From Chlorella sorokiniana (taxonomy: Eukaryota > Chlorophyta > Trebouxiophyceae > Chlorellales > Chlorellaceae), in NCBI GenBank assembly GCA_025917655.1, contig CP084614.1, positions 2,356,001 through 2,420,000 on the forward strand: 64,000 bases of DNA, given 5' to 3'. Numbering within the stretch: the first letter of the stretch is position 1; each line of letters starts with the position of its first letter. A program made the position numbers and the translations under genes. Below are positions 2,069 through 59,451 of the stretch, in pieces. A model generated the notes under the pieces. It ran no database searches. It was not told the origin of the DNA and worked only from the letters and a program-made list of their open reading frames with translations.

Positions 2069-3871
2069 ATGGGGCGAAGAAGATGTTTCGGGCGGCGGAA
2101 CCCGGCCCCAACGGAGCTGCCGTTGCTCTCACCTGGCACAAACGACTCTGCTGGTTTGCTAATGATGCTAGAATTCAAGGCAAGCCTCCAAGCCCAGTAT
2201 GACCCACACGCGCTTTGGGCTGCCCTGTTTCGTTGCTTCCGCCGCTCTCTGCATCGGCACCTTGAAAGTGTGGGCAGCGCATCACATCTGCAGCTACGAG
2301 GGGAGCTACGGTCTGCAGGGTCTGCAGGTAGTGGCGGCGCCCGTCAGGCTTGTTCCGTGCACACGGCTTCCCCTCCTGTTCTTGTCTGCGCAGGTGCATC
2401 CCTGCAACCGCACGGACATACATGACCAGCTGCGCTGCCTTGGTGTGCACCGTGGGGAGGAGATGACTCGGCGCGACCCCTGCCGCTGCCAGTACACCGG
2501 CATCGCGTGCCCCAGCATGCGCCACGGCGGCGGCTGCGACCTCGGGCAGGCCTGCCCCTTTGCCCACAACCCTCTCGAGTACTGGCTGCACCCCAGCAGG
2601 TGGGCTGGTGGGCGTGAAGGCGTGACCGGCGGCGCGCCCCAGGGGCAGCACCGCTGCACCGGCCTGAACTCTCCGGCCGCCCGGCTGCTACAATACTGCA
2701 CAACACTTTTCGCGTCCCCGCCCCCCCTGTCTGCAGGTTCCGCACCCAGCTGTGCCCGGATGCCTTCGCGTGTCGCCGCGCGGTCTGCTTCCTCGCTCAC
2801 AACCCCGAGGAGCTGCGGCTTCCCAGCGAGCCGTCGCTGCCTGCCGGCGCCCTGCTGCATGCAGCCGCCGCTGTCGCAGCGGGAACAGCAGGCGCTGCCC
2901 CTCCTCCCGTGCCCCTCGGCTTGAGCGTGGCAGCACGGCAGCGGCCTGAGCGAGCGGGTCCAGCAGCCGGATCTGCATGCCTGCCCGAGCGGGATGCGCG
3001 GCTGAGCGCCGACGCGCCCAGCCCTGAAGAGTACCGCCGCGCCCTGCAGCAGACAGCGGCGCTGCTGCGGCGGGGCCAGCAGGGCGGCGCGGCACCCGCG
3101 CAGCAGAAGCAGGAAGGACACGCCCCGTTCTGGCTGCAGCAGCCGTGTGCAGCTCCGCCGCTCCCTGTCGAGGCCGTGTGCTGCGGGTGAGTCTGGGGCC
3201 TCTCGCCGGGTGCGCACTGGATCAGGCTTGAAGCGCTGCCACACCTGCACGCATCGCAGCCTGCTCCTCTCCTCTCCCTCTGTCCGCAGCGACCCTGCTA
3301 GCCACAGGCACGGCCATCGCCGCCCTCCACCCCATCGCACTGGCCCACAGAGCGACGTGCCGGCATGCGCCAGTCGGGCGGCCCCTGCCAAGGCGGCTGC
3401 ACAGCGGGGTGCGGCATGCGCCACGGCGGCCGCTGCAGGGCAGGGGCCCGAGCCGGCCTTGCTGCATGTGTGCGCTGATCAGGCTGAGCGGCAGCTAATC
3501 CAGCCCTCGGCGCGCATGGCGGGCACCGCCGCCGCCCGCCTGTTTGCGGTGCCTGAGGGCTTTGCCTCGGTGCTGGCATGGCACTGCCGCTCCAGCACAG
3601 ACACAGGTGATGGGGCCCTCGTCGCTGCGTATGGGCCCGCTCTGGGCACTGCCTGGCAGTGCCCCTGGCGTGTGCTGCTGACGTGCCGAGCATGCGGCAG
3701 CCCTGTCGCTGCTCAGCCGCCCACGATCCTTCCTCCTGTGCCGCCGCGGCAGCCCGACACACCCAACCCTACCCCACTCACCCCCCTCCAGATTGCGACG
3801 ACTTGGACTTTGCGTCGTGGCGCTGCAGCGGCGCCTCCTCTGCCGCTGCAAGCGTCGACTGTAGCCACTGA
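2069..3871 (+). CDS. Tandem CCCH zinc-finger protein B (RR-TZF family)
   Basis: Exons 2069..2179, 2394..2599, 2737..3186, 3290..3606 and 3792..3871 give a clean 387-aa frame. Exon 1 ends in LLMMLEFK, the counterpart of the FMMYEFKV box that opens the plant RR domain. Exon 2 continues with VHPCN and then finger 1 (C-x8-C-x5-C-x3-H). Exon 3 opens with FRTQLC and finger 2 (C-x5-C-x4-C-x3-H). A conserved SARMAGTAAARLFAVPEG box matches gene A. The RR region's own first Cys-His cluster looks degenerate compared with gene C. Intron 1 needs a GC donor (AAG|GCAAGC). The start at 2069 is the only in-frame ATG well upstream; an earlier leader exon cannot be excluded. Inferred role: cytoplasmic mRNA regulation. 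Confidence 0.85.
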
Positions 3872-4874: not shown

Positions 4875-7376
4875 ATGTCGCAAGCCGCCGAATCGGGCGC
4901 GCCCTCTGCGCCCTCTGGGTCGCTGGACGACTTGTACGCGAGCGATGCATTTCGGATGGAGTCAATGAAGGTAATCAAAGACGCCGACAAATGCCCTTAC
5001 GCTCGGGGGCCAGGCACCGCCCCAGAATGAGGCTGTGCGCCTGGGCCGTGGGCGTCTCCTTTGTTTTCTACACTTGCCAAGCTCCGGCGACGCCCGCATC
5101 AGCAACCGCCGACTGTTGCCTGTTTGCCTGTTGAGTACCGTCCCGCCACCAATAGCCGCCCACGTTGCCGCCCATGCACCCACTCCACCCCGCAGGTGCT
5201 TCCCTGCAGCAAGCACTACGTGCACGATTGGACCGCGTGCCCCTTCGCGCATCCGCACGAAAAGGCCCGCCGTCGCGACCCCCGCAAGCACCAGTACACC
5301 GGCATCGCCTGCCCCAGCATGCGCCAGGCACGCGGGGCGGTTGGCTGCGGGCTGGCCCGCTTGCCACTCTGCATTCGCTCCCTGCTTGCGCTGCAGCCTG
5401 GCCCGGCTGCTGACGGCCTGCTGACGGCTGTAGGTCAGCTGCATGAAGCGTGCGTGCCGGCAGCCCACGGCTGGCTGGCCCCCACTGAAACTGTCGCCCG
5501 GTGCCGCCACCTTTGCAGGAGGGCTCCTGCTCCCTGGCGGATAACTGCCCCTACTCGCACAACGTCTTTGAGTACTGGCTGCACCCCACCAGGTGCGCGC
5601 CGCGCGCTTGAAGAGCAGCAGCCTGTGATCAGGACCCCCCGAGGCACCCTGCGCGTACCGTTCAGTGGCACAGTGGCACTGATGCGCACAGTCTGGTGGC
5701 TGCCTGCCAACCCGCACCCAGCCACCCCGTCCTGCCGCAGGTACCGCACCCAGCTGTGCAATGACGGCGCCAACTGCCACCGCAAGATCTGCTTCTTCGC
5801 GCACTCTGCGTCCCAGCTGCGCGTGCCCGACGCCAAGCCGTTTGTCCCCGCGGAGGCCGTGGTGGCTGCCGCTGCCGCCGCCGCAGCAGGCAGCTGCGCC
5901 GCCGACGCGCTGGCGGCGGGCCCCACGCCGCCCTCGCCCCAGCGGGCAGCTCCCGCGGCTGCGCCGCCCCTGCCGCCGCCAACACCAGCGCCTCCGCGGC
6001 CGCGGAGCACCCCTGGTGGAGCTGATGACGCGGCTGGTGGCCCGCGGCAAGGTGACCCCGGAGCGCTCCGCCGCCATCCTGCAGCAGGTGCTGCCCCCGA
6101 CGCGCTGCAGGGGCTGCAGGCGCAGCTGGGCGCCGCCGCACAGCCGGAGCGCGTGTGCAGCAGGTGGGGCCCCGCTCGTTTGCATGCTGACTGCAGCTGG
6201 TTCGCTGCCTGCACACATGTTTGCTGGGGGCAGAGGCAGGGCGGGCAGAGCTCAGCGGGGGCCGCGCTTCATAGGCGGTATTCCCAGCGGCAGCTCGCCC
6301 GCGCCCCCCCCCCCCCACCCCCCACACACACACAACACCACCCACACACACACACACACATCTCCACCTCTCCCTTCTTCTTCCACTGTCGGCCATCTGC
6401 AGTGACCCGCTCAACTGGACGCACCGCATGTTCTCCCGCCCCCCCGCCCGCCGCCCCCTCGGCCGCCGCCATGCTGCGCGCCAGCGCGACGCCGGGCGCT
6501 GCCTGGGCCCTGGCCCCCACACCGGCCCGCCTGAGCACTCGGCCATGGACGCTGCTGCGGGGCCCTCTGCTGGGCTGAGCGTGGCCGAGATGCGGCTGGC
6601 GCTGCTGCAGGGGGCGCTGCAGGAAGTGCAGCAGGCGCGGGCTGACAGCGCCCGGTCGTCCCTCGACACAGGTGGGCGCCCGGGGGCCGGGTTTGGAGGC
6701 GCTGAACACTCTGCCGTGGGGCTCTTGCGCGGCAGCTGCTGGCTGGTTGTTCCGCTGACGCCTCCACCCCTGGCCTGTTTGTGCCCGTCATGCTTGCAGT
6801 GCGCGCCAGCTTTGACGCCGTGCCGATGCAGCTGGGAGGCAGCCCCACCCCCGCGCCTCCTGGGACGCTTCCTGCGCCTCCATCGTGCACCAGCAGCTGG
6901 CGCTGGGCGCGCTGGCGCAGCAGCAGGCGGCGGTCGCCGCCGCGCTGGCCGCCTCCGCGCAGCCGCCGAGCTGGGGGCAGGGCGGCGCCGCCGACCGCGC
7001 CTCGCTGGACAGCCAGTTCAGCCAGCTGAGCCTGGTCGCGGACGGGCGCCAGGCTGGCGTGCAGGGCGGGCAGCGCACCAGCCTGGAGAGCCTGATGAGC
7101 CTGGGCGGGCGCTCCAGCCTGGACCCCGCGCACAGCTGGGAGGGCTCGCTGGCGTCGCCGCACATGCTGCTGTCGCAGCAGGCAGCGCTGCGCGGCTGCG
7201 AACCGCCAGAGGCTCACCCCGCCGTCGACGCCTTCCAGTCGGCGTTCTACGCCTCGCCCGCCGCCGCGGCGCACCCCGCCCAGCGCAGCTCTGCGCAGCC
7301 GCCCGCCGGCACGCCGCTGCACGACGGCGGCGAGCAGCCGCCGCTGCTGCACCCGCGCCCCCGCCGCTCCTTCTGA
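4875..7376 (+). CDS. Tandem CCCH zinc-finger protein C (RR-TZF family)
   Basis: Exons 4875..4970, 5196..5327, 5519..5592, 5741..6163, 6403..6671 and 6800..7376. This is the best-conserved member: exon 1 ends YASDAFRMESMK, exon 2 has the RR region with HDWTACPFAHPHEKARRRDP, and finger 1 is completed across a GC-AG intron (CAG|GCACGC at 5328) as C-x8-C-x5-C-x3-H. Finger 2 follows YRTQLC. The C-terminal half is Ala/Gln/Ser-rich with DPLNWTHRMFSR and a Ser/Leu-rich tail. Two places change frame: about 6005-6100, where ELMTRLVARGKVTPE is read in another frame, and about 6848, inside a run of C. Both look like sequence indels. Genes A, B and C form a head-to-tail array of divergent paralogs. Confidence 0.85.
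6323..6360 (+). repeat. (CA)n microsatellite in intron 4 of TZF-C
   Basis: Two CA tracts after a long C run, on the sense strand, ending about 40 nt before the 3' splice site at 6402. Confidence 0.9.
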
Positions 7377-8103: not shown

Positions 8104-8108
8104 TGTAA
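8104..8108 (+). promoter_or_regulatory. Candidate TGTAA poly(A) signal of TZF-C
   Basis: TGTAA is the standard green-algal polyadenylation signal. Here it lies about 730 nt after the TZF-C stop, so the 3' UTR would be long. Confidence 0.4.
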
Positions 8109-8132
8109 CCAACCGCAGGTGGCAGTCATCTG

Positions 8133-8137
8133 TTACA
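8133..8137 (-). promoter_or_regulatory. Candidate TGTAA poly(A) signal of the cupin gene
   Basis: TTACA on + reads TGTAA on -, about 460 nt past the cupin stop at 8597. Confidence 0.4.
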
Positions 8138-8596: not shown

Positions 8597-11500
8597 TCAC
8601 GGCTCCGTTTGCAGCACCGTGCTGGCGGCGTCTGGCGACAGCAGGGAGAGGGTGGTGACGTTGCCCTCTGGGGCGCAGCGGGTGGTGCACTGGGGGTCGT
8701 TCAGGGAGGCCAGGGAGCCAGGGGGCGTCCAGAGTGGCGGCCCAGCCAGGGAAGCTCTCGATGCCCAGAGCGGCTGCGGCAGGGGGCGCGGGCAGCAGCA
8801 ACGCGGTGACATCCAGCGGTGACCAGCAGAGGGGGTAAAAACCAGCCAGCCAGCCACACAACAGCGGCGCCAGGCCGCCTTTTCCTGGCCCCCAGCTGCT
8901 TGAACCCAGGAGCTTGCACCGACCCAAGTCCAGACTGCCGCCAGCCACCAACCACCAACAAGTGGAAGCACAGAAACAGATGCACGCGCCGCTGCTGAAC
9001 CTTACGACCCGCGGCCGCGCCATCGCTGTTGGAAGCCCACGCTCACACACTGCCCGGCCCCTCCTCTCCCACCCGCACACAGTGGCCCCCCTCACCGGCC
9101 AGCACCCCCTGCGGCAGAGCCAGCAGGTCGGCCACAGGGTACACGCGGTTGGCCCCCCGTGCAGTGAGCAGCGTCAGCAGCACCGTGTCCTTGCAGTTGG
9201 CGTTGGCCAGGTAGGACAGCACGCCTGGGGGGGGAGAAGGGCGGGAGGGGGGGGGGGGCGAGGGATGAAACGGGTGCCCTTGCTTCCGCGCGCGCGTGCT
9301 TTGAGGCTGGCAGCATGGCGCCGGGTCGCTGTGCTGGCTGGCTGGCGCAGGGCGGCGACATGAGCAAGCGCCAGCAGCCACCCCCGGCGGCTGCCACAGC
9401 CACACCGGGGCGCTGGCAGGGCTGCAGCGCGCAGCAAAGCGCGGGCGCACCCAGCGGGATGACGGCGACGTCTCCCGGCTGCAGGGTGCGCACCACTCGG
9501 CGGGTGCCGTTGACCACCAGGATCACGTCAATGGTGCCTGGAAAGGGGGGCAGGATTGGGCAGGGCAGGGGAGGGGGTTATGGGGCAGGGCATGAGGGGG
9601 GGGGGGGGGTAAGGGGCAGGGCGTGTGTGTGTGTGTGGGGGAGGCAGGGGGCGGGCAGGCTTGAGCCGCAGCTTCAGAAGGCCCCGCAGGCCGCACCGTT
9701 TGCAGCGGAGGCGCAGGTCAGGGGGCGCAGTAAAGGCGGAGCTGGCAGCGGCTGGCCAGACCCAAACCACGCCCTCCTCGGCAACGACGGCCACCCTTCG
9801 TCGCCGCGCAGCACAGCTGTTTTCCGCCTGCCTGCTACGGTTTCCCGACACAAACCATGCGCGCTCAGCTGGCTGGCTCGCATCGCCGCCCCTCTCACCC
9901 GACAGCACGGTCGTGAGTGCGTGCGCGTTGGCCTGGAAGCGCGGTACCGAGGTGCTGCAGGGGAAGTACCGCGTCCACAGCGCCTCCACCTTTGCCTGGG
10001 CCAGCCCCGGCAGCTGCTCTGCGGGCAGGCAGAAGGCAGGGGAGGACCAAGCGCGGCAGGTGTGTGTGTGTGTGCGTGTGTGTGTGTGTAACCTGTTTGT
10101 AGGTTTGCAAGGCAGGAGGCTGCAACCAAGAGAAAGTGGTGCACTGCGGCAGGGCAGCGGCGGGGGCAGCACGGGCAGCAGCCAAAGCGCACTGTGGGTC
10201 AGGCGTCGGCGGTCGGCGTGTGAGTTGCTCCCTGACCGCGGCCCCTCGCTGACGGAAGCCATGAAATCGTTGTACACGCGGCCAGCAGCGGCGGCGGTGT
10301 GCGCCTCTGCGGCCAGGGAGCGGCGCGACGCGCCAGCTGTGCCAGCCAGCAGGCTGCGGCGAGCGGCCGGGGCGCGGCGGCTCCGCCCCCGCGCGTCGCT
10401 GGCTGCTGCGCTGGCGTTGCAGGCCGCCTTGCACTGCTCGCTGGAAAGGTACATGTGGCTCTTTGGCAGCTTGATGCCCGCCTCAAACGCGGAAAAGTTG
10501 TTCACGCCAAAGCTGGCTGCAAGGTGGGAGGGCGGCGGCAGCGGCGGCCGGAGGTCGGCAGCGGCGGCGGCGGCAGCGGCGGCAGCCCGGGCTGTCACCC
10601 TGGCTGGGCGCTGGAGGCCGCGCTGCTGGGCGGCAGCGGCCATGCCACAGATAAGCAGCACCCGCCCGCCCGTCTGGAAGGGCCAGCAGCAGCAGCGGGC
10701 GGCAGGAGGGGCGCGGCCATCAGGGGTGCACGCCAGAGCAGCCGGTCGGCAGCGGATCGGCAGCAGCAGAGCAGCATCGGCGGCGCCGTGCTCACAGATC
10801 TGTGCCTGCTGCGGCAGGCGCAGCAGCTGGTCAATGGGGTAGACGGTGTCAGGCAGCGAGGAGGAAAGCACGATCACCGCCTCCGCCTCCTCGCACCCCG
10901 GGTTGCTGTAGGAGTGCAGCGCGCCTGCAGGGGAGCGCAGGAGCGTGTCGCAGCAGTGGGCAGCAGCCGGCAGCGGCAGCGGCGGCAAGCGGGTGAGGTG
11001 GGGTGGCGGTGGACGGGCGGTGCGGCGGAGTGGGGCGAGCGGTGGCGGCGGGCGGGGGGGGTTAGGCGCGGGCAGCAGGGGCAGCAGAGGCGCAGCCCGC
11101 CGAGATGGTACACACTAGCAGCCAGCGCGCCTGTGGGCACCACCGCCAGGTCGCCCCTGCGCAGCGTGTGGCGGTGCACCTCCCCCCACCACCAGCACCA
11201 CTTCCAAAACGCCTGCAGCCGACAGGGAAGGAGCGTGTGTGTGTGTGTGTGTGGGAAAGTGCGAGGAGGAGGAAGGGGGAGGGGGATCCAGGGGTCGCAA
11301 AACCATCAGAAGACAACGTGATTGAATTGAAGGTATGTGCAGGGGAGCAAACGTCGGCGGCCGCCCGCCCCACTCGAGCGTGTGGGGCTTGCACGCCGCC
11401 GCCGCCGCAGCCCACCCACCCGACTTTAACACGAGCGTTTCTCCGCAGTTGGTGTGGTAGTGGGGCGCGAACGATCCGCACGGCCGCACCGTCAGCAGCT

Positions 11501-38572: not shown

Positions 38573-41500
38573 ATGAGCGCTGGAAGAGGCGTCAGCCAGC
38601 GCCCCAAACCTCCATCCCTCATGTACATCGGCAAGTCTCGCTGCCTGGCAGGGCCTCCGTTGTTGGAGTTGCTGCATAGGCACCCTGTCACCCTGCCTGC
38701 CTGCCCTGCTGTTCCCTACCCCGCCCACAGATCGGCAGCCGCTACAGCCTGCTGCGTGTGCTGGGCTACGGCAGTTTCTCCTCCGTGTGCTTGGCGGTGG
38801 ACGAAGCAACCGGGGAGCAGGTGGGTGCACTGCGCGCAGGGTGCGAGAAGCTGGCCGCCTTTGGCTGCGTCCCTTCTGAGGCGCCGCCGCGCGTCGCTGC
38901 GCCGCTTGGCACAGCCTCTAGTTGGGCGCCTCGGCTGGTACGCCTTCCCTGCACCGCCGCAAGCCCATCCCGCGCGTCGCATCCCGCCGCACAGGTTGCG
39001 TTGAAGCGCGTGGCGGACGTGCTGCAGTCTCCGGAGCACACGCGGCGAGTGCTGCGTGAGGTGTGCATCCTGCGCCGCCTGCGGCACCCCAACCTCATCG
39101 CCATCCGCGACGCCTTTGTGCGCCCCTCCGCCACGGGGCAGTGCCGCCTGCGGGGCGGCAAGCTGGTCAACCTGAGCGTGGACGTGTACATCGCAATGGA
39201 GCTGGCCGACGGCGGCGACCTCTTCCACCTGCGTGGCCAGCTGACGGGTGCGCCGGTGGGATGCGCTGGCCAGCACGGCATGCCTTCCTGAGCTGCGCCA
39301 GTGCGTCTGCGGCTGGCCAGCTATCCTTTGCAGCCTGAGCTGCTCTGTACAGCTCTGCAGTCCAGGCGCCTGCTGGGCCAGGGCGCAGCTGCCCCTCGCA
39401 GTTCAGCCCCGTGGCGGGCCTGGCGGCTTTCAGCCGACGGGCCTGCCCTGCTGTGCAATCATCTCTCAGCCGGCCCCGCCGCTGCGCGACTGTCCTTCCC
39501 TTCCTTCCCCGCTGCTCAGGCGGCGAGGTGCGCTCGCTGATGTGGCAGCTGATCGTGACCATCCGTTACCTGCACTCCCTGCACGTCTGGCACCGCGACA
39601 TGAAGTCACAGGTGGGCGCCTGCTGCAGCCGTGGGTGCTGGTGCTGCATGCTTCTGGTTCAGGGTGTGCATGCCGCCACGCCTGGCCAGGCGCTGCGCCG
39701 GCCGTGGCGGCAGCTTGTCCCGTTGCGGCGCGCCGCAGCTGCTGCCGCATGAAAACTGACCCACTGCCTTTCTTTCTACCTGTTTTCCACCCGTTTCACC
39801 GCCTCCCGCCAGAACGTGTTTCTGTCGTGGGAGAATGGGGAGCGAATCGTCAAGGTGCGAGGGCAGCGCAGGCAGGCTGCTGCCTTGCTGCGGAGGATGT
39901 ATCTGCATGGGCCGGCGCATGGATGCGGGAGGGCACTCCTGCCCGCCACTGGGTTCGCACTCGAAGCGCAAGCCCCCATGGAGTGGCCCCCTCGCCTGCA
40001 TTTTGTGCCACCCCCATCTTTGCTCCCCCGCCCGCCCGATCCCTCTGTCCAGATTGGCGACTTTGGCAGCGCTCGGTCCGCCACCCCGGGCGGCTACCCC
40101 TGGGCTGAGCAGAGCGCGCCCAGCATGGAGGTGCCAGCAGGGCGGCCCTCTGCGGGGCCCGCCATGCTGCACGGCGCTGACAGCTATGCGGCCATGGACG
40201 CTGCGATACAGGTGGGCGGTACAAGCACGGGCATGGGGATGTGGGTTTGGGTTTGTGTGGGTGTTTGGGCTGGTGTGGGTGTGCTGCGCTGCCTCCCTTT
40301 ACGTTGCCTGCCCCCTCTCGTCAATCCAGCCTGCCCCGCTGCCCTCCCTCCATACCCGTCTCCTGCCCTCCCCCTTGCTCCTCATCCCCGCTTCCTCCCC
40401 CTGCCTCCCCCACAGCCCCAAGACCTGTACGCCCAGCCTGAGCCTGGCGCGGAGGAGGGCGGGGGGGGGCGGGCAAGGCGCCGCTGACCCGCGTCGTGGC
40501 CACGCCCTGCTACCGGTGAGGGCCGCCGCCAGAAGTCACGAATGCCACGCGGCGGATTTTGTGGGTTTGATGTTGTTTTGTTTCGCTTGTTCCATAACGA
40601 CAACTGCTGGTGGCATCTGCACCGCCCGGGCGTCCAGGGCAGGCACTGACGTACCACCGCCACCACCATCACCGCACACACCGATGCTACCGCCACGCCC
40701 CCCCCCCCCGCCCCCTGCAGCGCCCCTGAGGTTGTGATGTCGCGGGGGGCTACACCGCCGCCATTGACATGTGGTCCCTGGGCTGCATCTTCGGGGAGCT
40801 GCTGCAGCGCATCGCGCACGTCGGCTCCGCCGCCACGCCCAACCTGCAGGTGCCTGCTCGCCTCCCTCCGGGCACCCCTCCCCTCCAACCCCCTCCTCGC
40901 CTGATGCTCGGGCCCGTCGCAGCGCGGGTGCTTCCAGTCCGGCATGCAGCTTGGAGTCGACGGGGCGCCAATGGGCCTGCTTGGGTGGTTCGGGGCTGCT
41001 CCCCGGAAGGGTCCGGCTGTTCATTACGCGCCTGACGCTGGGCTACCCTGCGCTGCTGGCGCCGCTCCGCCGCCGCAGGTGGCTCCCCTGTTTGCCATCC
41101 ACGGCCTGCCCAAGACGCCGGGCGACGGCGAGAGCTTTGTCGGGGGCCGGGCAGCGAGCTGACGCGCAGCGAGCTGCAGGCACGCCGCCCTTGCTCCTAG
41201 CTCCAGCCGCTGCCGGCATGCGCGGGCGCTGCGCCCGCGTTGCATGCCATCAGCTGCAGCCAGGCTCACGCCGCTTCGCATGTGTCCACGCCATCTCCTG
41301 CAAGCCCCACCGCACCCCCTCCCCCTTCCCCCACCACAAACTCGTAGTTCCTGCTACTCTCTCTCTGTCTCTGCCTTTGTCTGTCTCTCTGTCACTCTCA
41401 TGATCATCCACCACGATAACCACCCATCCGCACACATACCCATACTCTTCACAGCCATCTCTTCCCCGCTGCAGGCGCTCTTCAGCGTGATGGGGACCCC

Positions 41501-43734
41501 CTGCTGGGCCGACGTGGCGGCTGTGCAGGAGCCGTCCTGGCGGCGGTACCTGCACCACCTGCCCGGCCGGGCGCCCACGCTGTACCGCAGGTGCGGTGCG
41601 GGACAGTGCTGCGAGCTGCGGCGGTACAACCCGCCCCGGGGCTGCCCTGAGGTGCCGTCCGGAGCAGCCACACCGCTGCTGCAGCTCACGCAGGACTTAC
41701 CCCTTCCGTCATTGCTGCCGGCGAGGCCTTGTGTCGCTGGCTTCCCCCTCTCCCACCCCACGTCTGGTGGCCCCCACGCCAGGTTTGCCGCCGCGGGCGA
41801 GGCGGCGGTGGACTTGCTGGCGCGGCTGCTGGCCTTCGACCCAACTCGGCGGTGCAGCCCTGAAGAGGCTCTGGCCCATGAGTACTTTGCTGACACGTCG
41901 ACAGGGGAGGCGGGTGCGGGCGCTGCACACTGTTTACGTCTGTGTGCTGCCTTGTGTAGGCTGTGCTGTGGCCATGACGTGACGCCTTGGCAGCGTGGAA
42001 AAGTGCTGCTGCTGGCTGCCTGGGAGGGCTCGCCGTCTCTGCCCCACTAGCAACGGGGTGCCCCACCCGCTTGCCCACAGGCGGCCTGGACGACGCCGTG
42101 GCTTCCGGGCAGCTGCTACCCGGGGGCAGGTGGAGCGGCGGCGGCGCTGCGGCTGCCGGGCAGGCTCCTTCTCCCGAGGGGGAAAGGGCTGCTGCCGCAC
42201 CCACCGCGGCCCAGCTGGAAGCAATGGACGAGGGTGCGCCGCCAGCAACGCCCTGTCGGCGCTGCAGCCCTACTCCGTCACTCCCTGCGGGGTGCCGGTG
42301 GCCCACGCCGAGCAGGCAGCGGCGGCAGCGCAGCACGCGGCGGCGGCGGCGCGCCACGCGGCGGCTGCCGCCGCCGTCGCGCAGCAGCGGGGCGGCGATG
42401 CCGCGGCCAGCGCGCTTGCGGGCCCCTTTGCCTCGCGCTTGCATGTGGGAAGCCCGGCCGACAGCTCCTCGGTGCAAGACCCAGCACAGCTGAGCGCCTC
42501 GCCGTTTGCCACGCCGCCTCATCGCTGTGGCGGCGGCGGCGGCAGGGGCGAAGCGGCGGCTGGGCGTGCGGCGGCGGCGGCGGCAGAGGGCGGCGAGCGC
42601 ACTACTGGGAGGAAAGCGAGCCGGGCGGGCCCTGGCCATGCTCGAAGAGGAGCTTTCAGCGATCACTGGTGGGAAGGAAAGGGGCGGGGGCTGCTGGCGC
42701 GAGGGCTGATTGAGGGTGGGGCCTGCAATGCAGTGCTTGCAGCGAATGCAAAGTGCTGCTCCTGCCTGCCTGCGCACCCCGCCCGGCACTCGCCTCACGG
42801 TCGCAACGGAGGCGAGCGACCCGATGGCTCAACCTTGCCCTTGGGCTGACCATCAAATTCCCATGCAGCGCACTACAGCACCGCCTCCCCCGAGGACGAG
42901 GGCAGCCAGATGCTGCGGCGCTTGCTGGAGGAGGAGTGCGAGGCGATACAGGCGGCGCAGGCGGCGACGCGGGCGCCCCAGCGGCGCGGGGGGCCCTCCA
43001 GCGACGGCGACGCCGCCAGCGGCGGCAAGAAGCGCGCGCGGCTGCCGCATGGCGGCGGCGGCGAGTCGGGCATCCTGTCCAGCCTGCTCAAGCGGCGCGA
43101 CGGCGGCCTGCAGGCGCGCCGTTTGCGGGGAACTTGCTTTGCTTGACGCAGCTACTCCTGGGCCCGGTTTGCACATGAGCTCCCCTTTCCACTCGACATC
43201 CTGCTCTCTTGCTTTGTCTGAAGTCTTTGCTGGCCGCCAGCTCCAGCTGCTAGCCCACAAGCTCGCAAGCCCCCTCTCCCCCTCCCCTCCCCCATCCCCA
43301 ATCCCCCGCTCCCGCCATGCAGGAGGACACTGCCGCGCAGCTGGACGCCGACAGCTTTGCGGCGCAGCGGCTGAGCAACGTGGCGGACACGTGGCAGGGA
43401 CGCGAGCTGGACCCCTCTCGCATCCTGGGGGCGCAGCGCCACGGGGAGTGGTTCCGCTCCCAGCCCGCCCAGGGTGAGCTTGCAGGCTTCGGCAATGCAG
43501 TGCCTGGGCGGTGGTTGAGGGGGTCTCCTGTGGAAGGGAAGCGCCACGCCTCTGCAGCCTGACGGGGAAAGAATGCTTGCTGATGCTGCAGCTACTGTGT
43601 CCGCCCCCCGTCTCACCCGCTGCAGGCCCGGCCGCTGGCCCGACCTGGGAGTCACCGTGCTGCCCCCGGGCAGCGATGCATCCAAGCTGGATCCCCAGCT
43701 GCTGGCCATCATGCGAGCGCAGCAGGGGCGCTAA
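38573..43734 (+). CDS. MAP-kinase-like CMGC protein kinase with long C-terminal extension
   Basis: Fifteen exons: 38573..38634, 38739..38820, 38995..39247, 39520..39611, 39813..39854, 40053..40211, 40416..40515, 40721..40849, 41079..41180, 41475..41590, 41783..41913, 42081..42668, 42869..43113, 43323..43473 and 43626..43734. Kinase features: Gly loop LGYGSFSSV, VALKRV (Lys), HRDMKSQN (catalytic Asp), IGDFGSAR, YRAPEVV, IDMWSLGCIFGELL, FSVMGTPCWADV and FDPTRRCSPEEALAHEYF. The activation segment carries a low-complexity insertion of about 75 residues and shows no TxY motif before TPCYRAPE. A tail of about 400 residues has Ala/Gln-rich parts and Glu-rich coils. Introns 9 and 13 need GC donors. 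Five or more bases are missing in G runs. Joining the tail exons rests on phase and spacing only. Confidence 0.78.
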
Positions 43735-44065: not shown

Positions 44066-46447
44066 ATGCGCTCTTGGGCTGCCGTCGCTGCAGTGAAGTC
44101 AAGAGTGCAGGAAAATGGTGAAACTACTCGTACAACACTTCCAGTGCCCATCACGGCGGCTCTGCAGCCTGGTAGCGGAGAAGCGCTGTTGCGCGAGGCG
44201 GCAAAGAGCCGGCAAGACGTCACAGGTGGGTGCAATAATGGGAAGGGGTCGCCTAAAAGCTGCCAAGGGATGCCGCCGCTCAGCCGATCGCCCAGTCCCA
44301 CCCCGGCACCACCGCTGGAACGAGCGCAAACTGTAGCGCCGCTGGTATGCAGGCGAACGCCGCTGTTTGGCCTGTGGGAAGGGCTTTCGCGACATGCAGC
44401 GCTTTGCGCAGCACCTAAAGGATGCTCACGGCGGCCGTAACGCACCTCAGCTGCAGCCTGCCGCGCGGCCGCCCAGCGGCGGGCACGGCCCGCCTCCCAG
44501 CCTGCGTGCCGCCGTCCAGCTCGGCGATCTGCTGTTGAGGGCGCTGCCAGCTGGCGGGAGCCCCGCACCCAGACCGGGGACCAGGCCGGGCGGCCGAGCT
44601 GGGCAGCGCCAGCAGCATCCGGAACAGCCTCTCCAGGGGGCGCAGCATCAACAGCAGCCACGCTCTCGAGCCCAGCCACCTGATGGGCGGGCTCAGCCCG
44701 CAGCAGCCACGCCGCCGGCTGGCGGCCCCTCTGCTGGCCACAAGGCAAGCCGCTTCACCCTGCAGCCTGCGGTACACAAACACACTGCAACTACAACAAG
44801 GCGAGGATCGTCCGGTAACAACGTTTTGCTCTGCCCGCGGTGCCTCTGCAGGCTGCCACCGCCGCTCTGGAGCCGCCGCCGGGCACCCGGGCCAAGCGCG
44901 GCAAGCGGGAGAGCAGGCTGAAGCGTGCGTTCCGGCGCAGCGCGGCGGCACAGGCGTGTAGCCACTGGCAGGAGGTTCTGGCAGGTGGGGCGGGCTGCTG
45001 GGGGGCCTTTTGGTAAAGAGATGCTCCTGCACCCTTGTTTGAGTGGGTCGGGTGGGTGGGTGGGTGTGTATGTGTGTGTGGGGGCGGAAAGGGGGGCCTG
45101 CAGCCCTGCAATCATCCACTGTGACTGGCGTCCCCCTGTCCTCGGCCCCATGCAGAGCTGGAGGCAGCTATGCAGGCCGTTGGCGAGGCCCAGGGATCGT
45201 TAGCCAACCAACTGGCAGCGGCAGAGACAGACGCCGAGGCGGGTCACCAGGGCGGCGAGGGACAGGGGAAGAACTGGGCGGAGGGGCAGCCGCAGGATCC
45301 GCGTGCCGCCGACCTGGCGGTGCGGCGGCAGCTGCTGCAGCAGCAGTTAAGGCACGCGGACGAGTGTCGGGGCGGCTGGCGACAGCACACGGCCACGCGC
45401 GCGCCAGGCTGGCGGCCGCCCAGCGGCAGCAGCAGCGGGTGGAGGGGCTGCTGCCTGCCGGCGGCGTGCTGGAGGTCAGCAGCGATGGCGAAGAGCGGGG
45501 AGCGGCAGCTGCGGGACTGCACGCTGTACCAGCAGCGGGACAGGTTGTCCCGGATCACCCAGCTGCGCAGGTGGAAGCGACAGCACAGCAAGGCTCCCAG
45601 CAGCAGCAGCAGCAGCAGCAGCAGGAAGGAGGGCAGCTGGTAGCGCCGCCTGTTCCGGGGAGCGCCGCGCTGCAGCCCACACTCGCCGTCCCCACGGCAC
45701 ACGCTGCACCCCCAAGCTCAAGTTCTGCAGCGGCCTCTGAGGCTGGAGGCAGCGAGGCGGCAGCATCCGCAGCCGCATCCAGCAGCCTAGCCAGCTTCGC
45801 TTTCCAAGATGTGCTGACCAGCTGGGCTGCAAGCAGCGGCAGGCAGCAGGCGGCAGCAGTGGGGCCGGCGCCGGGGGTCGGCAGCTGCTGGCTGGGGGCG
45901 CCCCTCCGGGCGGCGAGGGCCTCCGGCGAGCCACATGGCGGCGGCGCAGCAGGCGCGGGGTGCCGCTGCTGCTGCAGCCCCCAGGCAGGCGCCGGCGTTA
46001 CTGCCCGAGGCACGCATTGATGTGCCCACCGACGCAGCAGCAGAGCCTTCCACTGTTGATTCTCTCGCATGCAAGGGCTCAGGCTCGGCAAGCGCGGCAG
46101 GCAGCAGCGCTGGCAGCAGCGCCAGCAGCGGCAGCGAGAGCAGTGAGAGCAGCGGCAGCGGCGGCTCCTTTGGCCTGCAGTGGGGGACCAGCCGCAGCTG
46201 GGCCGGCGCGGTGCGGCTGCAGGCGGGAGCTGTGGCGCAGCACGCAGCCCCGGCCGCGCCACAAGCTCCTCAGCAGCAGCAGCTGCGGCAGCACCAACTC
46301 ACATCGCTCCAGCTGCAGGACCAGCAGCAGGGGGCAAGCAGGGGCAGCAGCAGGGGCAGCAGCAGCAGCAGCAGCAGGGGCAGCAGGAGCAGCAGCTTCA
46401 ACTGCCGCCCGACTCTGCGCAGCAGCCCGTGGCCGGACTGCAGGCTG

Positions 46448-46478
<31 letters not shown>

Positions 46479-48378
46479 TGCATCGCAGCCATCCTCCGCC
46501 CAGGCTCAGCCCGAGGGCACCGGGTCTCTCGCCGCGGCGGCGAGCCAGCCCGGTGCTGCTGCTGCAGATGAGCCAGCCTCCGTTTCTGCGACCGCTCGAG
46601 TGGTGGATGTGGCTGCTTGGCTGGAGGCCGCTGACGCTGCTTCCGCCACTGACGCTGCTTCCGCTGTGCCGCCATCGGATGCGGGTGTGGGTGGGGAGAT
46701 GCTTGGGCGGCGAGGCGGCTTGGCCCCACCAGCTCTGGTCCTGGCACCACTGCAGCAGGCGCCGGCCGGTACAGCAATGCCGGCGTTTGTGCAAGCCGCT
46801 GTGGAGCCCCCGGGGGCCTTCAGGTGCCAGCTCTGCGGCGTGACGATCAGCGGGCAGCGCAATCTGGACGAACATCTGGCCAGCAAGCGGCACGCCAAGC
46901 ACGTGGCAGCTGCGGCGGCGGCAGCCGCCGCCTCGGCTGCCGGCCCCGACGCCACGCACGGCCTGGCTCTGGCGGCGGCGGTGGCGGGGCTTCCTGGCGC
47001 AGGCAGCAGCAGCGCGCTGTCGCCGCCGGGCGGCGGACGGACGTATGTGGGCATCGGCGCTGACGTGGCGCCCTACGTGTGCCAGGTGGGCGGCTGCGCC
47101 CTCCCCTCCTCCACCCCTCCTCTGGCCCCTCTCCCACCAGCTCCCCACGTGCTGCCGCTCGCCCAGCTCAGCCAGCCCAGCCAGCTCAGCCCAGCATGCT
47201 CGCCTTGAACCTTTGCGAATGTCTTCTTCCCATCTTTTCGAAATTAACCCTTCTCCCTGGGTGGCTGTGGCACCCAGCTGTGCTGACAGAAGCACCTGCC
47301 TGCTCCACCACCCTTCGCTCCCTGCCCCGACACTTGCCCAGCCCCCCGTCAAAAACAAAGAATCGTCCCCTTTTGGTCACCGCCCCACCCACCCGCCCCA
47401 GGTCATCTCTCCCGAGCTCAATGCTCTGGCTGAGGCCGTGCTGCGCCGCCTGACGGAGTGGCAGGAGCGCGTGCGCCAGACCGACCCAGCCAACTTCCGG
47501 CGCAAGCGGCGCCTGGTGTCTGGCCTTCGGGAGGCAAGCAAGGGCCTGGGGGCGGCACGCGTTGGGGAGTGTTTGCATGTGGCCGAGGCCTCCAGTGTGT
47601 GTGGCCAGCGTGCAGGCAGTACGTGCAGGCAGCACGTGGGGACAGCGCATCTGCTGGGAAGGCGCCCGCGCCGCTGGCTTCAGGAATGGGGGTGGGCGGA
47701 CGGGCGTCTGGGCCTGCACGTGTGTGGCAGGAGGGCTGCAGGTGCGCCGCCATGCCGCTGCTCCCAGCCCGACGCGCTCGTTCTGCTGCCGCTGCCGCCG
47801 CAGGTGGAAAAGGCGGTGAAGCTGCGGCGGGCCAAGCTGGTGCTGCTGGCCCCCAACATTGCCAGCCTGGAGGGCGGCGAGGGCGGCGAGGCAGCCGCAT
47901 CGCCGCCGCAGCCCGGCGCGAGCGCCTGTCCCGCGACCGCCCTGGCGGCCCTGGCTGCGGAAAAGGAGGTGCCCCTCGTGTTTGCGCTCAGCCGGCAGCG
48001 TATGGGCAAGGTGAGCTGGGCTCGCTGTGCTGGTCATCAGCCGCTTGCCCGTGACGGCAAGGGCCCCCAGCCACCTGCGCGTTGCTCAACAAAGTCGTGC
48101 CCCCTCTGCTGTGCCTCCTCTGCTTCCCGCTGCCGCAGCTCCTGGGCCAGCGCAAGAGAGCCAGCGCCTTTGCGGTGCTGGACGCAAACGGCGTGTTTGA
48201 GGAGGTGCGGCGCCTGGAGCAGCTCGCAGAGGAGGGGCGGCGGCAGTGGCGGGCGCACCACGCAGCGCTCGGCGGAGGCGCCGGGAGGCGCCACAACACA
48301 GCTGATCGCCCTGACGGATGTTACATGCTGCTGCATGGCACAAGTGTGGTGCAGGCAAAAGATGAGCCGGTGCTTTAA
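44066..48378 (+). CDS. SBP2: SBP2-like protein: L7Ae RNA-binding domain (SECIS-binding family) with two C2H2 zinc fingers
   Basis: Exons 44066..44225, 44353..44744, 44852..44984, 45156..47085, 47402..47533, 47804..48010 and 48139..48378. The C-terminal domain reads VISPELNALAEAVLRRLTEW, KRRLVSGLREVEKAVKLRRA, KLVLLAPNI, EVPLVFALSRQRMGK and KRASAFAVLDANGVFEEVRR. This is the L7Ae fold with the SID-like lead-in typical of SECIS-binding protein 2, which delivers the Sec elongation factor to selenoprotein mRNAs. Upstream are a C2H2 finger (CLACGKGFRDM), a coiled region, a long Gln/Ala/Ser-rich stretch, and a second, U1-like finger (CQLCGVTISGQRNLDEH). Introns 2 and 5 need GC donors (AAG|GCAAGC, GAG|GCAAGC). 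The low-complexity exon 4 changes frame several times. An SBP2-like protein without a selenium role is possible. Confidence 0.72.
45058..45080 (+). repeat. GT-rich tract in intron 3 of the SBP2-like gene
   Basis: Dinucleotide repeat in GT orientation on the sense strand, the one clear exception to the CA orientation of other intronic tracts. Confidence 0.8.
46320..46475 (+). repeat. CAG trinucleotide-rich coding repeats
   Basis: Runs of CAG in exon 4 of the SBP2-like gene, giving Gln or Ser tracts depending on frame. Frame changes cluster here. Confidence 0.75.
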
Positions 48379-51305: not shown

Positions 51306-51628
51306 GGGGATGGCACATTTGCAGCCGGCCCAGCTTGTGTGTTCCATTAAGTTTTCTCTCGCGTCTGCTATAATGTGCCGCCTTGCTTGCAGTGTCTCCC
51401 CACCTCCTCAGTACAGATAGGTCGTACAGCTTCGTGCGCCTCTTTCAGCCCTTCCAAGGAACCACTGTGCTGTTAGCCCCTCCTAGAGCCCTATCATGGG
51501 CCGGGAGGGCCTCAAAATGCGCGAAGCGGGCTCGCCCTCTCGCTCTTTTGTCCGCGAAAGCGTCCTTCGAGCCCACAGCATTCCGCAGGCTCCCTCTGTT
51601 ACCCCTACACACTCAAGCAATTGTCAGA

Positions 51629-52906
51629 ATGCAGCGCCGCGCCGCGCTCGCGCTGCTGCTGTGCGCTCTGGTGGGCGGGGCGTCGGCCACACTGAAGAAG
51701 CACCACCCGAAGGTGTCTGGCGCCAGAGTCAGCGGCATGCGCACCTTTGGCGGCTTCATGAGCGACGCTGGTGCCGGGGCCGGCGCTGAGGCTGGCGCTG
51801 GGGCCATGGCTGGTGCCGGTGCCACTGCCGGTGCCGATGCCAACGCCGGCGCCATCACAACCCCGTTGCCGTTCCCGCTGAGTGCCAGTCAGTGGCTGAG
51901 GTGGCAGCGCAGGCTGGCTCCTTCTCCACCCTGCTGGCCGCCGCACAGGTGGGGGGGAGGAGCAAGAAGGGGGCGGCTGTCGCGCCTCTTCCGTGCCTTG
52001 CACCCCGGCTGGCAGCTTGCATCTCAAGCAGGCTTGAACCCTGGATTGCATTCCACCTGCATGCATGCCAACCCACACCCCTTCCCCTCTGCGCAGGCCG
52101 CGGGCCTGGCCCCCGCCCTCAGCGACCGCGCCCTGCAGGCCACCGTGTTTGCGCCCTCCGACGACGCATTTGACGCCGCCCTGGAGGACCTGGGCATCAC
52201 CGCCAGCCAGCTGCTGGCCCAGCCCGAGCTGCTGCAGGCGGTAAGGGGGCAAGGCTCCACAGCTGTGCCCTGTGCGCTGCTGCTGCCAATCATTCCCTTT
52301 CTCTTCCTGCTCGCGCTTCTTGCTCCCCCACTAGATATTCCGTCACCAGCTTGCCTTCACCCTGCTGCAGATCCTCAAGTACCATGTTGTCCCCGGCACC
52401 GCCCTCACCGCCGACCAGCTGAGCGACGAGCAGAAGCTGCCCACCCTGCTGTCCGCCGACCTGCAGGCCGCCGCCGCCGCTCAGCCCGCCCCCGCCTGGT
52501 CCAAGAAGGGCGGCGCTGCCGAGGAGGGCGAGAGCGCCGAGCTGACCATCCAGATTCAAAAGGTGTGCAAGGCGGCTGGAGGATAGGGGTGGGGTAATGC
52601 TGCAGGGAAGCATTCTTGGCTAGCTAGCGCTGCTCCTCTCGGCGCCCATGCCCTTCGCCCGCTCACACCCTCCCCCTCCCTGCCATGCAGGTGTTCAGCA
52701 AGCTCGAGCCGCCCAGCCAGCGCATCACAGTGGAGGGCTCCCTGTCCAGCGGCGTGGTGACGGCCGCTGACATCAACGCCGGCTGCCCCGCCGTGGTGCA
52801 CGTGATTGACGCCGTGCTGCTGCCCGACATCACGGAGGAGGAGGAGGAGGGCATGGAGGGCATGGGCAGCATGTTTGGCAGCCTGAAGACGCTGTGGGGC
52901 ATGTAG
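51629..52906 (+). CDS. Secreted fasciclin (FAS1) domain protein, copy 2
   Basis: Exons 51629..51948, 52097..52240, 52371..52562 and 52691..52906. Same plan as copy 1: signal peptide RAALALLLCALVGGASA, AGA linker (shorter by about 12 residues), FAS1 domain with ATVFAPSDDAFDAAL and AVVHVIDAVLLP. Differences: a six-residue insertion with QPAPA in the Ala/Lys region, and an extra MEG near the end. Exon 1 lacks one C of a five-C run that copy 1 has intact (at about 51863), so the printed sequence shifts frame before VAEVAAQAG. This is either a true lesion or the same indel error seen elsewhere. With that base present the product is about 290 aa. Intron 3 uses a normal GT donor. Confidence 0.85.
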
Positions 52907-56500: not shown

Positions 56501-59451
56501 GCGGCGGACAACGCGGCTCAGGGCGCCGACCAGCATACCTGCTGGAGCTGCTGCGGCGCGCTGCGCTGGGCGGCGGCTGCGACGTTGGCCGCGATGGAGG
56601 GGAGGAGGCTGGCGCGGGGAGGGCGCCTGCTCCGCTGCGCACGCTGTGCGCGCTGCGGTGGAGGCCAGCGGGCACGTGGGCCGCCTGCGCGGCATGTGGG
56701 CCTCCGCCGGCATGCTGCTGCAGTACGCTGCCTGCATCGCGCGGTGCGGCGGCGTGCCGCCACGCGACCGCGAGCTGCTGGCCTGCCGCGTGGGCCACCT
56801 CTTTGCCGCCTACCACGCCCTGGCCCGCCTGCTGGCCGCGCTGGGCCTCAGCCTGACTGCCGCTGTCGCGCGGCCCAACGCACCCTGCGGGAGGCCCTTG
56901 CCCCTGCTGCGTCGGGCAGCGAGGGCAGCGCCGCAAGCGGGCCAGCGACAGGGCTGCAGCCGCCGCCGGCTGTGCCTGGCAGCGGTGGCACGGCGGCGGC
57001 AGCGAGTGCCCGCTCGGCTTCGCCCGAGGAGGAGGAGCCTGCCATGGCGGCTGCGCTGCGTCCCTTTGGCGACGACATTGACCAGCTGCTGGGCTGCATC
57101 GCTGACCAGGATCAACTGCCGGCCTGGCACTTTGTGCTGGAGTACCGCCAGGTGCGCGGCAGCTGCCAGGCAGCTAGTGAAACGCGTATTGTGGATGCAC
57201 GCCCAGGCGGCCCAAGGGGTAGCTGCTGCGCGGCTCTCTCGGCCAGTGGGCAGTAGCGGTGGGGCAAGCCTGGGAGGCAGTCCGGTTGGAGCTCATGCCA
57301 GCGCACACCCTCCACTCAACCCCCTCCTGCCTCCATACCACAACGCAGGTTGCCAGCCTGGCCAGCCGCCAGCGCCTGCTGCAAAGCCTGGCGGTGGCCT
57401 GGCCGCGCCGGCGCGAGCGAGCCCTGCCTCTCTCCACCGCCCGCAGCGGCCTGCTCCAGCGCGTGTGCACAGCGGTGGACGACGCTGCGGCGGCCGAGGC
57501 GGCGGGGGGCGGGGCTGTGGCGTCTGCCGGTGGCGTGCTGTGGCACGGCGTGCGTGTGGCCTTCGAGGGGAGGACGGCAGCGGCGACGGCGTCAGGCGCG
57601 AGTGGTTCAGCCTGCTGGCGGCTGAGCTGGCGGATCCACAGGCAGGCCTGTTTGAGTCGCACAACGGCGGCGCCGCCACGCGCCGGCACCCCACGCCATC
57701 CTGCAGTGCGACGCTCCTCACGGGGCAACCGCCGGCGGCGCCGGCAACGGGGCCAGCAGCCCTGTAGGCTGCCACCTGCGCAAGTTTGAGCTGGTCGGCG
57801 CCCTGATGGGGCTGGCCCTGCTGCAGGCAAGCTCCGGCTGCCTGTATGCTGCTGCATGTTCCAACTGGGGGTCCTTCAGTGCAGCAGGCACTGCCGGCGC
57901 AGCCTCTGCGCTATCCGCCCCGCAGGCGCAGCCCCGGCCTCCTGGCCAGCGCTCACTGCCAGGCGCCAGAGGCCTCTTTGTTGAGCATGCTGCAACCGCC
58001 CGTTGGCCCGCCCGACAACCCTCCCTTTCCTCCTACGCAGGGCTGCACGCTGCCCGGGTTCCGGCTGGCTCCCGCCGCCTGGCGCCTCGCCCTGGGCCAG
58101 CCGCCGCAGCCGGAGGCTGACCTGGCGGCCGCCGACCCGCAGCTGCACCGCAGTCTGCGGCTGCTGCGGGCATGGGGCCCGCCGTGGCGGAGCTGGGCCT
58201 CCACTTTGAGGCGCACGATGCCCTGGGGGCGGGGGTGAGCTCATCTTTGGCTGCAGTTGGCCGCGCGGATGCTGGTTTGCCGCCCGGCCAATCGGCAGCA
58301 CGTGCCCGTGGCAGGCCCTTGCAGTTGGCTGCTGCCTGGGCTGGTGTGTGGCCTCTCCGTCTCTCCAATCCACCACCCTGCTTGCGTCCTGCCCGCTCGC
58401 TGCAGGCAGAGCTGGCGCCCGGCGGGGCCACGCTGGCGGTGACGGCGGCGAACCTGCAGCAGTACATCGCGGCCCTGGCGCGGTACAAGTCGGTGCACTG
58501 CATGGCCGATGCCAGCAGGGCGCTGGGGCGCGGCCTGCGCGGCGTGCTGAGCGGAGACGCGGTGGATGCGCTGGCGCGCTGCTTCAGCCACGACGAGATG
58601 AACGCCATGCTGGCGGGCCTTGCTGAGCTGGACGCCGCCGAGTGGCGGGCACACACCCGGCTGGAGCACTGCACCCAGCTCACCCCCAGCTGGGCTGGCT
58701 GTGGGCCGCGGTCGCGCGCTGGGCGCCGCCGCAGCGCGCAGCCCTGCTCACCTTCGCCACGGGCAGCTCGACGCTGCCGGCGGGCGGCTTTGCCGCGCTG
58801 CGCGGCTTCAACGGCGCGCCGCACCCCTTCACAGGCACGCGCCGCCACGCTCCCAGCCCCTCAGCCATGCATGCACTCCCCGCTGTGCGCCCTCCCAGCT
58901 CCGACGCTTTCGCCAGCTGCCGGGGTCCCGCCGGTCAACCCCATTGCCTGCTTACTGCCGAAACCCCGGCCAGCGTACCCCTGGGCGGGACGGATGGCTG
59001 CTTCCTCAACCCTCCCCCCGCCCCATGCCCTCCCGCAGTCTGCCTGGTTGCAGCGGAGGGCGACAGCCGCCTGCCCCGCGCCTCCACCTGCTTCAACACC
59101 CTCTTCCTGCCCCGCTACTCCTGCCCCGCTGTTCTGGAGGCGCGGCTGGGGCAGGCCCTTGCCGGCGCCCACGTCTTTGACGAAGGTGGGTGACTGGGTG
59201 GGTGCGCTCGTCTGCAGTTGGATTCTATTGCTGTTTTTGCGTGTGGGAGGGGGGGGGCGCGCGCGCTCTTAGCTCAGCAGCCTGGGGCGGTGTCGCTGCT
59301 GCGCCTGCGGTTGAGCAGTTGGCGTGGCGGTGCCCTGCTGCCCGGAGGCCTGGCAACCAGGGTTCTGCTGGCGTGGCAGAGCGTGCAAGCAGGGCACTGG
59401 CGCATGACCCCTGCCTGCCTCCCTGCCTGTGCAGCCGTGATCCGGCGTTGA
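53567..59451 (+). CDS. Ankyrin-repeat HECT-type E3 ubiquitin ligase
   Basis: Exons 53567..54614, 54837..55113, 55385..55763, 55912..56163, 56459..57151, 57349..57826, 58041..58234, 58406..58834, 59039..59185 and 59435..59451. The N-terminal part has ankyrin repeats (ALLSAASSGRLAELEAALQA, FTPLMLAATADAAAAAAVLL, DGMTPLHAGSEGGSVACVEA). The C-terminus is a HECT domain: VRREWFSLLAAELADPQAGL, FELVGALMGLALLQ, LAPGGATLAVTAANLQQYIA, LGWLWAAVARW, FATGSSTLPAGGFAALRGFN and RASTCFNTLFLP, where the Cys is the ubiquitin-accepting residue. In animals HACE1 combines ankyrin repeats with HECT, but the long middle here is unlike it. The introns after exons 6 and 8 need GC donors (CAG|GCAAGC, ACAG|GCACGC). At least six frame slips, mostly one base missing in G/C runs, so exon 1 and exon 5 details are approximate. 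Confidence 0.84.

Follow-up and report, generated by a model that had tools for sequence, protein, structure and literature searches.

A 64,000-nucleotide stretch of the Chlorella sorokiniana genome, referred to here as the window, raises the question of how many introns an alga can carry with GC donors and how its spliceosome would recognise them. GC-AG introns make up about 1% of introns in most eukaryotes. The preliminary description of the window listed 14 introns at which frame and motif were said to be joinable only with a GC donor. All 14 donors are present as AG/GCNNG on the expected strand (the slash marks the exon boundary) and share the form AG/GC[AG][AC]G; 13 coordinates are exact and one, given as 41181, is off by a single base and really lies at 41180 (Table 1). 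Homology or paralogy independent of the donor letters backs ten of the 14 sites, strongly at 11130, 22384, 35886, 47534 and 57827 and modestly at 2180, 5328, 31623, 41180 and 58835, and the need for a GC donor is unproven at 25807, 28299, 43114 and 44745. GC starts and AG ends lie at protein-supported junctions at these ten sites and at three sites in other loci. The list is thus partly confirmed: most of its donors appear to hold up as U2-type GC-AG introns, and we infer that they are spliced in the cell.

Table 1. Predicted GC-AG introns of the window and the fasciclin paralogue, with rank among 2,760 forced non-GT donor sites.
Feature	Positions	Strand	Donor	Rank	Remark
GC-AG intron, first tandem CCCH gene	2180..2393	+	AAG/GCAAGC	500	exon MMLEFK joins VHPCNR
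GC-AG intron inside CCCH finger	5328..5518	+	CAG/GCACGC		
GC-AG intron, cupin gene	10925..11130	-	CAG/GCGCGC		
GC-AG intron, fasciclin gene	22259..22384	-	AAG/GCGAGT		
Probable GC-AG intron, Cys-rich gene	25614..25807	-	CAG/GCGCGC	24	
Probable GC-AG intron, ankyrin/U-box gene	28299..28447	+	CAG/GCAAGG	35	
GC-AG intron, DEAD-box helicase gene	31623..31913	+	CAG/GCGAGC	9	
GC-AG intron, U-box/WD40 gene	35691..35886	-	CAG/GCGAGG		
GC-AG intron, MAPK-like kinase gene	41180..41474	+	CAG/GCACGC	447	
Probable GC-AG intron	43114..43322	+	CAG/GCGCGC	1	score 14.3
Probable GC-AG intron, SBP2-like gene, 5' part	44745..44851	+	AAG/GCAAGC	27	
GC-AG intron, SBP2-like gene	47534..47803	+	GAG/GCAAGC		
Inverted fasciclin paralogue	51629..52906	+			GT at donor homologous to 22384 (MAFFT alignment)
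GC-AG intron, HECT gene	57827..58040	+	CAG/GCAAGC		
GC-AG intron, HECT gene	58835..59053	+	CAG/GCACGC	3	

In the cupin gene, the motif G-x5-P-x4-H-x3-N is whole only with the GC join at 11130, as the preliminary description had reported; the Cupin_1 score is 71.1 bits with the GC donor versus 59.6 bits in a GT-only model, and Cupin_2 spans the junction at 35.0 bits versus a 26.3-bit match elsewhere in the GT-only model. The join at 35886 raises the WDR3 propeller score from 196.0 to 258.7 bits and the WD40 score from 174.8 to 188.4 bits, and a single FBXW7 match over residues 109–306 covers the junction at residue 149, as judged by residue span only. At 47534, the L7Ae domain scores 52.4 bits with the GC donor and 37.4 bits without it, and the junction aligns without gaps to SECIS-binding protein 2. 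The segment joined at 57827 scores 27.6 bits against HECT and aligns without gaps to SMURF1 at the junction; the downstream exon by itself has no HECT score, and the GT-only segment matches a different stretch of the domain at 21.9 bits. The Pfam gain at 22384 is small (77.4 versus 76.3), and the inverted fasciclin duplicate carries AAG/GTGTGC at the homologous donor with an acceptor and flanking exons that align, a recent duplication in which one copy has GT and the other GC.

Among the modestly supported sites, the 2180 junction lies inside a Pfam AtC3H23 zinc finger match (37.6 bits, residues 32–63), and the next tandem CCCH gene, read by eye, has the same intron with a GT donor, ATGAAG/GTAATC, and a joined protein that scores 66.0 bits with the AtC3H23 family. 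Joining at 5328 yields the C-x8-C-x5-C-x3-H spacing of two tandem paralogues, whereas the GT-only model adds four residues; zf-CCCH matches residues 71–91 of the joined protein at 11.0 bits, under the cut-off, and zf_CCCH_4 gains little (17.5 versus 16.5 bits). At 31623, Helicase_C scores 18.8 bits with the GC donor versus 12.6 bits GT-only, both under the cut-off; the DEAD domain score runs against the GC donor (38.8 versus 45.6), the two models differing in their N-terminal exons, and a PDB search with a short helicase segment around the site gave no match. At 41180, TRSELQ/ALFSVMGTP lines up with a MAP kinase and shows no gap at the junction, six of the aligned residues lying upstream of it. 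At 58835, the junction GFAALRGFNGAPHPFT/AE aligns across with HECW2 GFASLRGSNGPRRFCVE, with short gaps nearby; the Pfam sum for the C-terminal part of HECT favours the GT-only model (57.3 versus 51.1), and the full HECT segment scores 76.7 with GC and 79.4 without, the GC model there having used another acceptor for 57827.

The basis for the remaining four sites is frame and gene-finder score. When each of the window's 2,760 AG/XYNNG sites whose dinucleotide is not GT was forced and ranked by that score, 12 of the 14 listed sites fell within the top 73, the exceptions being 2180 and 41180. Pfam found no family in the Cys-rich gene of 25807 in either the GC or the GT-only model and none above the cut-off in the protein joined at 43114. 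The 28299 intron falls between domains, with the same Pfam scores with or without GC, and its acceptor differed between gene-model runs (28447 or 28638).

Twenty other 10-kb loci supplied 19 further GC candidates, of which ten, picked for looking conserved, were tested with Pfam and three of these taken on to PDB. Alignments of RFC3, IleRS and BOP1 to PDB chains cross the GC junctions; RFC3 shows no Pfam gain (29.8 with GC, 30.0 GT-only). These three and the ten window sites form the set of 13 supported donors, the other seven Pfam-tested candidates entering only a 20-donor count.

Position +3 differs sharply between the two donor classes. Of the 13 supported GC donors, 9 carry A there, compared with 19 of 499 GT donors taken from our own unverified gene models (p = 7e-10; odds ratio of the +2/+3 coupling about 57), and 439 of those GT donors have G. 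Across all AG/GCNNG sites +3A has a background of 29%, against which 9 of 13 is still an excess (p = 0.003); with the seven further candidates the count is 11 of 20. Supported GC donors match the U1 complement outside +2 at a mean of 6.0 of 8 positions versus 4.0 in GT donors; the strict scan demanded AG and +5G, which may also have steered the preliminary description, and only the shifts at +3 and +4 are free of selection. The loci sites were chosen with a model whose preference at +3 was set to neutral. The GT/GC paralogue pairs read GCGAGT versus GTGTGC (fasciclin) and GCAAGC versus GTAATC (CCCH). The U1 snRNA search gave a single match, on C3, with a canonical 5' end, beginning ATACTTACCTG. 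The +3A excess appears to compensate for the lost +2 pair.

These introns are likely to be of the ordinary U2 type, with C in place of T as the second donor base. U1 with a normal 5' end would still recognise them, the missing +2 pair being offset by stronger pairing elsewhere, at the exon-end AG, at +3 with A rather than G, often at +4 with A, and at +5 with G. We infer that the change ran from T to C and that drift caused it; in a Chlorella-like alga rich in GC, such drift would steadily generate GC donors at sites with sufficiently strong flanks, and these donors would settle at about 4–8% of introns.

A trans-acting change (in U1C, a Luc7-type protein, U1/U6 modification or an undetected variant U1) that lets the spliceosome tolerate +2C is an unlikely alternative. 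Because the U1 5' ends of Aureococcus and M. pusilla are normal as well, PMC3033335 invokes RNA modification or U1 snRNP proteins in these algae, and our search for a variant U1 pairing with C at +2, which found none, returned one U1 match and could miss divergent copies. However, the one U1 match has an unaltered 5' end, and the +3A shift, for which a spliceosome with full tolerance would have no need, suggests that +2C is still costly. The tight +2/+3 coupling could also mean that GT-G and GC-A are two donor codes, each perhaps recognised by its own U1 snRNP state or helper protein, instead of one class having drifted from the other, a reading that we regard as decidedly improbable.

The gene model of the window contained 113 GT and 12 GC introns on the first pass and 110 GT and 20 GC introns after retraining, at least one of the latter being false: the GC intron at 51791 is spurious, the retrained model having used it to span a shift of frame in the fasciclin duplicate. 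Supported GC introns number ten among about 125, or about 8%. Our share estimate rests on a one-pass joint competition among donor dinucleotides, in which GC was picked at 21 of 1,361 sites and all other non-GT dinucleotides pooled at 48 of 9,820 (p = 4e-5); a previous joint competition, covering somewhat more sites and read at a bonus of -2, pointed in the same direction (17 of 1,510 versus 25 of 10,886). Calibrated from this competition on sequence only, the GC-AG share is roughly 4–11% in the window and 3–5% in the twenty loci; the GC:GT ratio is higher in the window than in the loci (10:103 versus 11:358, p = 0.015), but the window was chosen because it looked high. Counting frame-only GC joins overstates the share in 67% GC sequence. 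A share several times the usual 1% holds, and the one in eight first proposed exceeds the 4–11% estimate and is not a genome-wide figure.

An artefact, with frame-joining in a GC-rich genome and assembly indels mimicking GC donors, has to be weighed against these counts. Frame-joining by itself is weak evidence because the gene finder uses mock dinucleotides too: with strict AG/XYNNG sites and a fixed seven-percent prior, the retrained model picked GC at 36 of 1,361, CC at 28 of 1,119 and CG at 32 of 1,527 sites, several mock picks being shadows of a GC site sharing the same acceptor. Unsupervised retraining with an extra donor dinucleotide ran away (228 GC introns, but 245 CT and 215 TG), and its counts were discarded. 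Two exons shift frame without an intron between, at about 41140–41160 in the kinase gene, upstream of 41180, and at about 58170–58185 in the HECT gene, and frame alone is therefore unsafe here; the invented intron at 51791 speaks the same way. The Pfam tests were confined to GC candidates. Nevertheless, PDB chains align over GC junctions, one paralogue pair has GT opposite GC, and GC exceeds the pooled mocks, all of which makes this explanation highly improbable; an artefact may be the source of some among 25807, 28299, 43114 and 44745.

In mammals and nematodes, GC donors have been proposed to be kept for regulated alternative splicing; for the present introns this reading has equally little to recommend it, although the available text of PMC2490688 links GC donors with such splicing. 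Several supported sites lie within conserved domains (WD40, RFC3, IleRS, HECT), where skipping or extension would break the protein, and nothing in the present data shows regulation. There is next to no chance that these are U12-type introns, whose donor motif is RTATCC and not the AG/GC[AG][AC]G seen here; a U12 snRNA search gave no match, and U5 was likewise unmatched, so this search is insensitive.

In the available text of PMC3033335, a paper reportedly by Iwata and Gotoh, 7.7% of introns are GC-AG in a Chlorella sp., compared with 22.2% for Micromonas pusilla and 39.6% for Aureococcus anophagefferens, and the abundance of such introns in some GC-rich algae is termed an enigma. The present genome falls in this class, with a G+C content of 67.4% in the window and 65.6% in the sample, a share far over 1% and a canonical U1 5' end, as in Aureococcus and two Micromonas there; it differs in its share of about 3–11%, estimated without RNA, and in its +2/+3 coupling, none within an alga being described in that text. 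Micromonas RCC299, at 64.1% GC, has 2.7% GC-AG introns (PMC3033335), which speaks against GC richness as the sole cause. For mammals, the available text of Churbanov et al. (2008, PMC2490688) describes compensation and neutral fixation of GC donors, with GT converting to GC in strong contexts; the flanks here are likewise nearer consensus, but mammalian GC donors are fewer than 1% of sites, and here most GT donors carry +3G and most supported GC donors +3A. Eurytemora affinis, a lineage with many non-canonical (GA) donors, has a variant in one of five potential U1 copies according to the available part of PMC7072748, whereas the only U1 found here is canonical. Elevated GC-AG use is real but of a known kind, already in print for GC-rich algae including a Chlorella (available text of PMC3033335).

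In genomes of this sort, gene finders restricted to GT would get several percent of introns wrong; here, GT-only models lose, add or swap about 4 to 23 residues at junctions in the cupin, WD40, helicase, SBP2, HECT, RFC3, IleRS and BOP1 genes. The +2/+3 coupling, together with the GT/GC duplicate pair, offers a clean test of mutual compensation among donor bases.

The preliminary description had read 14 GC donors from the window sequence, and the AG|GCNNG context is present at all 14 once 41181 is corrected to 41180. Using a self-written and self-trained gene finder limited to GT donors, we forced each of the 2760 window AG|XYNNG sites with a non-GT dinucleotide and ranked them by gene-model score. 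Twelve of the 14 listed sites fell within the top 73, with 43114, 58835 and 31623 at ranks 1, 3 and 9, and 41180 and 2180 low at 447 and 500. GC accounts for 18 of the top 73 sites and 331 of all 2760, and 6 of these 18 are absent from the original list.

We compared gene models built with GC donors allowed (GC) or excluded (GT-only) by Pfam, both in the window and for ten GC candidates from 10-kb loci elsewhere in the genome.

Pfam scores of GC and GT-only gene models at candidate GC donors
Gene or domain	Donor	GC	GT-only	Outcome
Cupin	11130	71.1	59.6	Gain
WDR3 propeller	35886	258.7	196.0	Gain
L7Ae	47534	52.4	37.4	Gain
Helicase_C	31623	18.8	12.6	Gain
Fasciclin	22384	77.4	76.3	Gain
Ankyrin/U-box	28299			No gain for GC model
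Cys-rich	25807			No family in Pfam search
HECT, full segment	57827	76.7	79.4	Against GC; GC model took different acceptor
HECT, C-terminal part		51.1	57.3	Against GC
IleRS	L035 7454	23.5 bits	No match	Stretch spans junction
IFT140/172-type TPR		36.6	30.3	Stretch spans junction
RPE65-type dioxygenase, two places		69.0; 134.0	63.7; 132.6	Stretch spans junctions
RFC3	L029 7846	29.8	30.0	Stretch begins beside junction; no gain

Among the ten loci candidates, the Pfam stretch clearly spans the junction in four; for BOP1, HisKA, SNF2 and the CCCH protein of locus L023 it falls on one side of the junction, which makes small Pfam differences there uninformative, and the L033 candidate has only a weak match. 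At residue level, PDB chains align through the window junctions of 47534 (SBP2), 57827 to 58040 (SMURF1) and 41180 (a MAP kinase) without a gap there, and a HECW2 alignment crosses 58835 with short gaps nearby. In the loci, the best PDB matches of RFC3 and IleRS likewise cross the GC junction gap-free, as does that of BOP1/Erb1 (L022 9758); the second BOP1 match is interrupted there by a gap of one residue. Restricting the models to GT costs 23 residues in RFC3 and 13 in IleRS, and adds 11 to BOP1. Separately, the MAPK-like and HECT genes carry frame shifts inside conserved exons at G runs (window ~41140-41160 and 58170-58185, no intron between), which are either assembly indels or real frameshifts. 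The IFT140/IFT172-type TPR protein of this Chlorella-like alga (C1:700001-710000, locus L020) belongs to a flagellar transport family. The organism appears to be related to Chlorella, as an exon on contig C3 scores 146 bits to fatty acid photodecarboxylase PDB chains, those of Chlorella variabilis.

Frame-joining by itself is insufficient as proof of a GC donor, because the finder also takes other dinucleotides in AG|XYNNG context when these are allowed; after retraining it used 36 of 1361 GC sites, 28 of 1119 CC sites and 32 of 1527 CG sites. One-pass joint competition, one of four settings, selected 21 of 1361 GC sites versus 48 of 9820 for the other 14 dinucleotides (p=4e-5), and under the same setting 90 of 151 strict-context GT introns were recovered after T was changed to C. 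Subtracting the false choices predicted by the rate of these mock donors and dividing by sensitivity, we estimate over the four settings a GC-AG share of ~4-11% in the window on contig C6 and 3-5% in twenty 10-kb loci of contigs C1 and C2, rough values with net counts of only 2-8 sites each. The difference between window and loci (p=0.015) concerns a window that had been picked for high GC-AG. The eukaryotic genome comprises 38.8 Mb in 15 contigs, with a G+C content of 67.4% in the window and 65.6% in a 318-kb sample.

Two paralogue pairs place GC and GT donors at a common intron. The fasciclin gene at 22052-23347 (-) aligns with an inverted duplicate at 51629-52906 (+) across each of the first copy's three introns, and the third donor reads AAG|GCGAGT in the former versus AAG|GTGTGC in the latter. 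The duplication is recent, with part of the flanks also alignable, and remaining genome matches are 43-60% identical. A length difference in the first coding exon of the duplicate alters its frame, and a GC intron at 51791 in the retrained model is spurious, as it bridges this difference. In tandem CCCH genes, AAG|GCAAGC at 2180 corresponds by eye to AAG|GTAATC in the neighbor. The flank is stronger in the GC copy in both pairs. Intron positions differ among the three tandem CCCH zinc-finger genes of window 1-7376, a minor example of introns gained or lost within a gene cluster.

Across donors, the bases around +2 appear to compensate for C at that position. The 499 GT introns called by the GT-only model have G at +3 in 439 cases and A in 19, whereas the 13 GC donors with support, ten from the window and three from the loci, have A nine times and G four times (p=7e-10); A occurs at 8 and G at 6 of the 14 listed sites, and A at 11 of 20 when seven more Pfam-tested loci candidates are added. 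AG|GCNNG sites in general have +3A in 29%, exceeded by both 9/13 (p=0.003) and 8/14 (p=0.03), and the contrast is therefore partly a lost +3G preference and partly a gained A. Outside +2, the supported GC donors match the U1 complement at 6.0 positions on average and GT donors at 4.0, or at 5.0 when only GT donors sharing the AG...G context are counted; all 13 supported GC donors have -2/-1 AG and +5G, both preconditions of the loci scan. The literature searched, mostly available without full text, yielded no statement of +2/+3 coupling in algae, and one may still be published.

The single U1 snRNA match found has the 5′ end ATACTTACCTG, and thus no base change there able to pair with C. Among U6 snRNA matches, eight truncated 64-nt copies form a tandem array of ~555 bp (C4:2006301-2010250, loci L014-L017; three copies aligned) adjoining a full-length U6 at C4:2010742. 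A 2011 study (PMC3033335) likewise describes a canonical U1 5′ end for Aureococcus and for each of the two Micromonas genomes. Against an overall GC-AG share of 1.3%, it lists 39.6% for Aureococcus, 22.2% for M. pusilla, 7.7% for Chlorella sp. and 2.7% for Micromonas RCC299, ties the share to G+C content and terms its origin an enigma; for plants, a 2018 study (PMC6310983) gives an average of 1.2%. The GC-AG introns here are thus one more case of a known trait.
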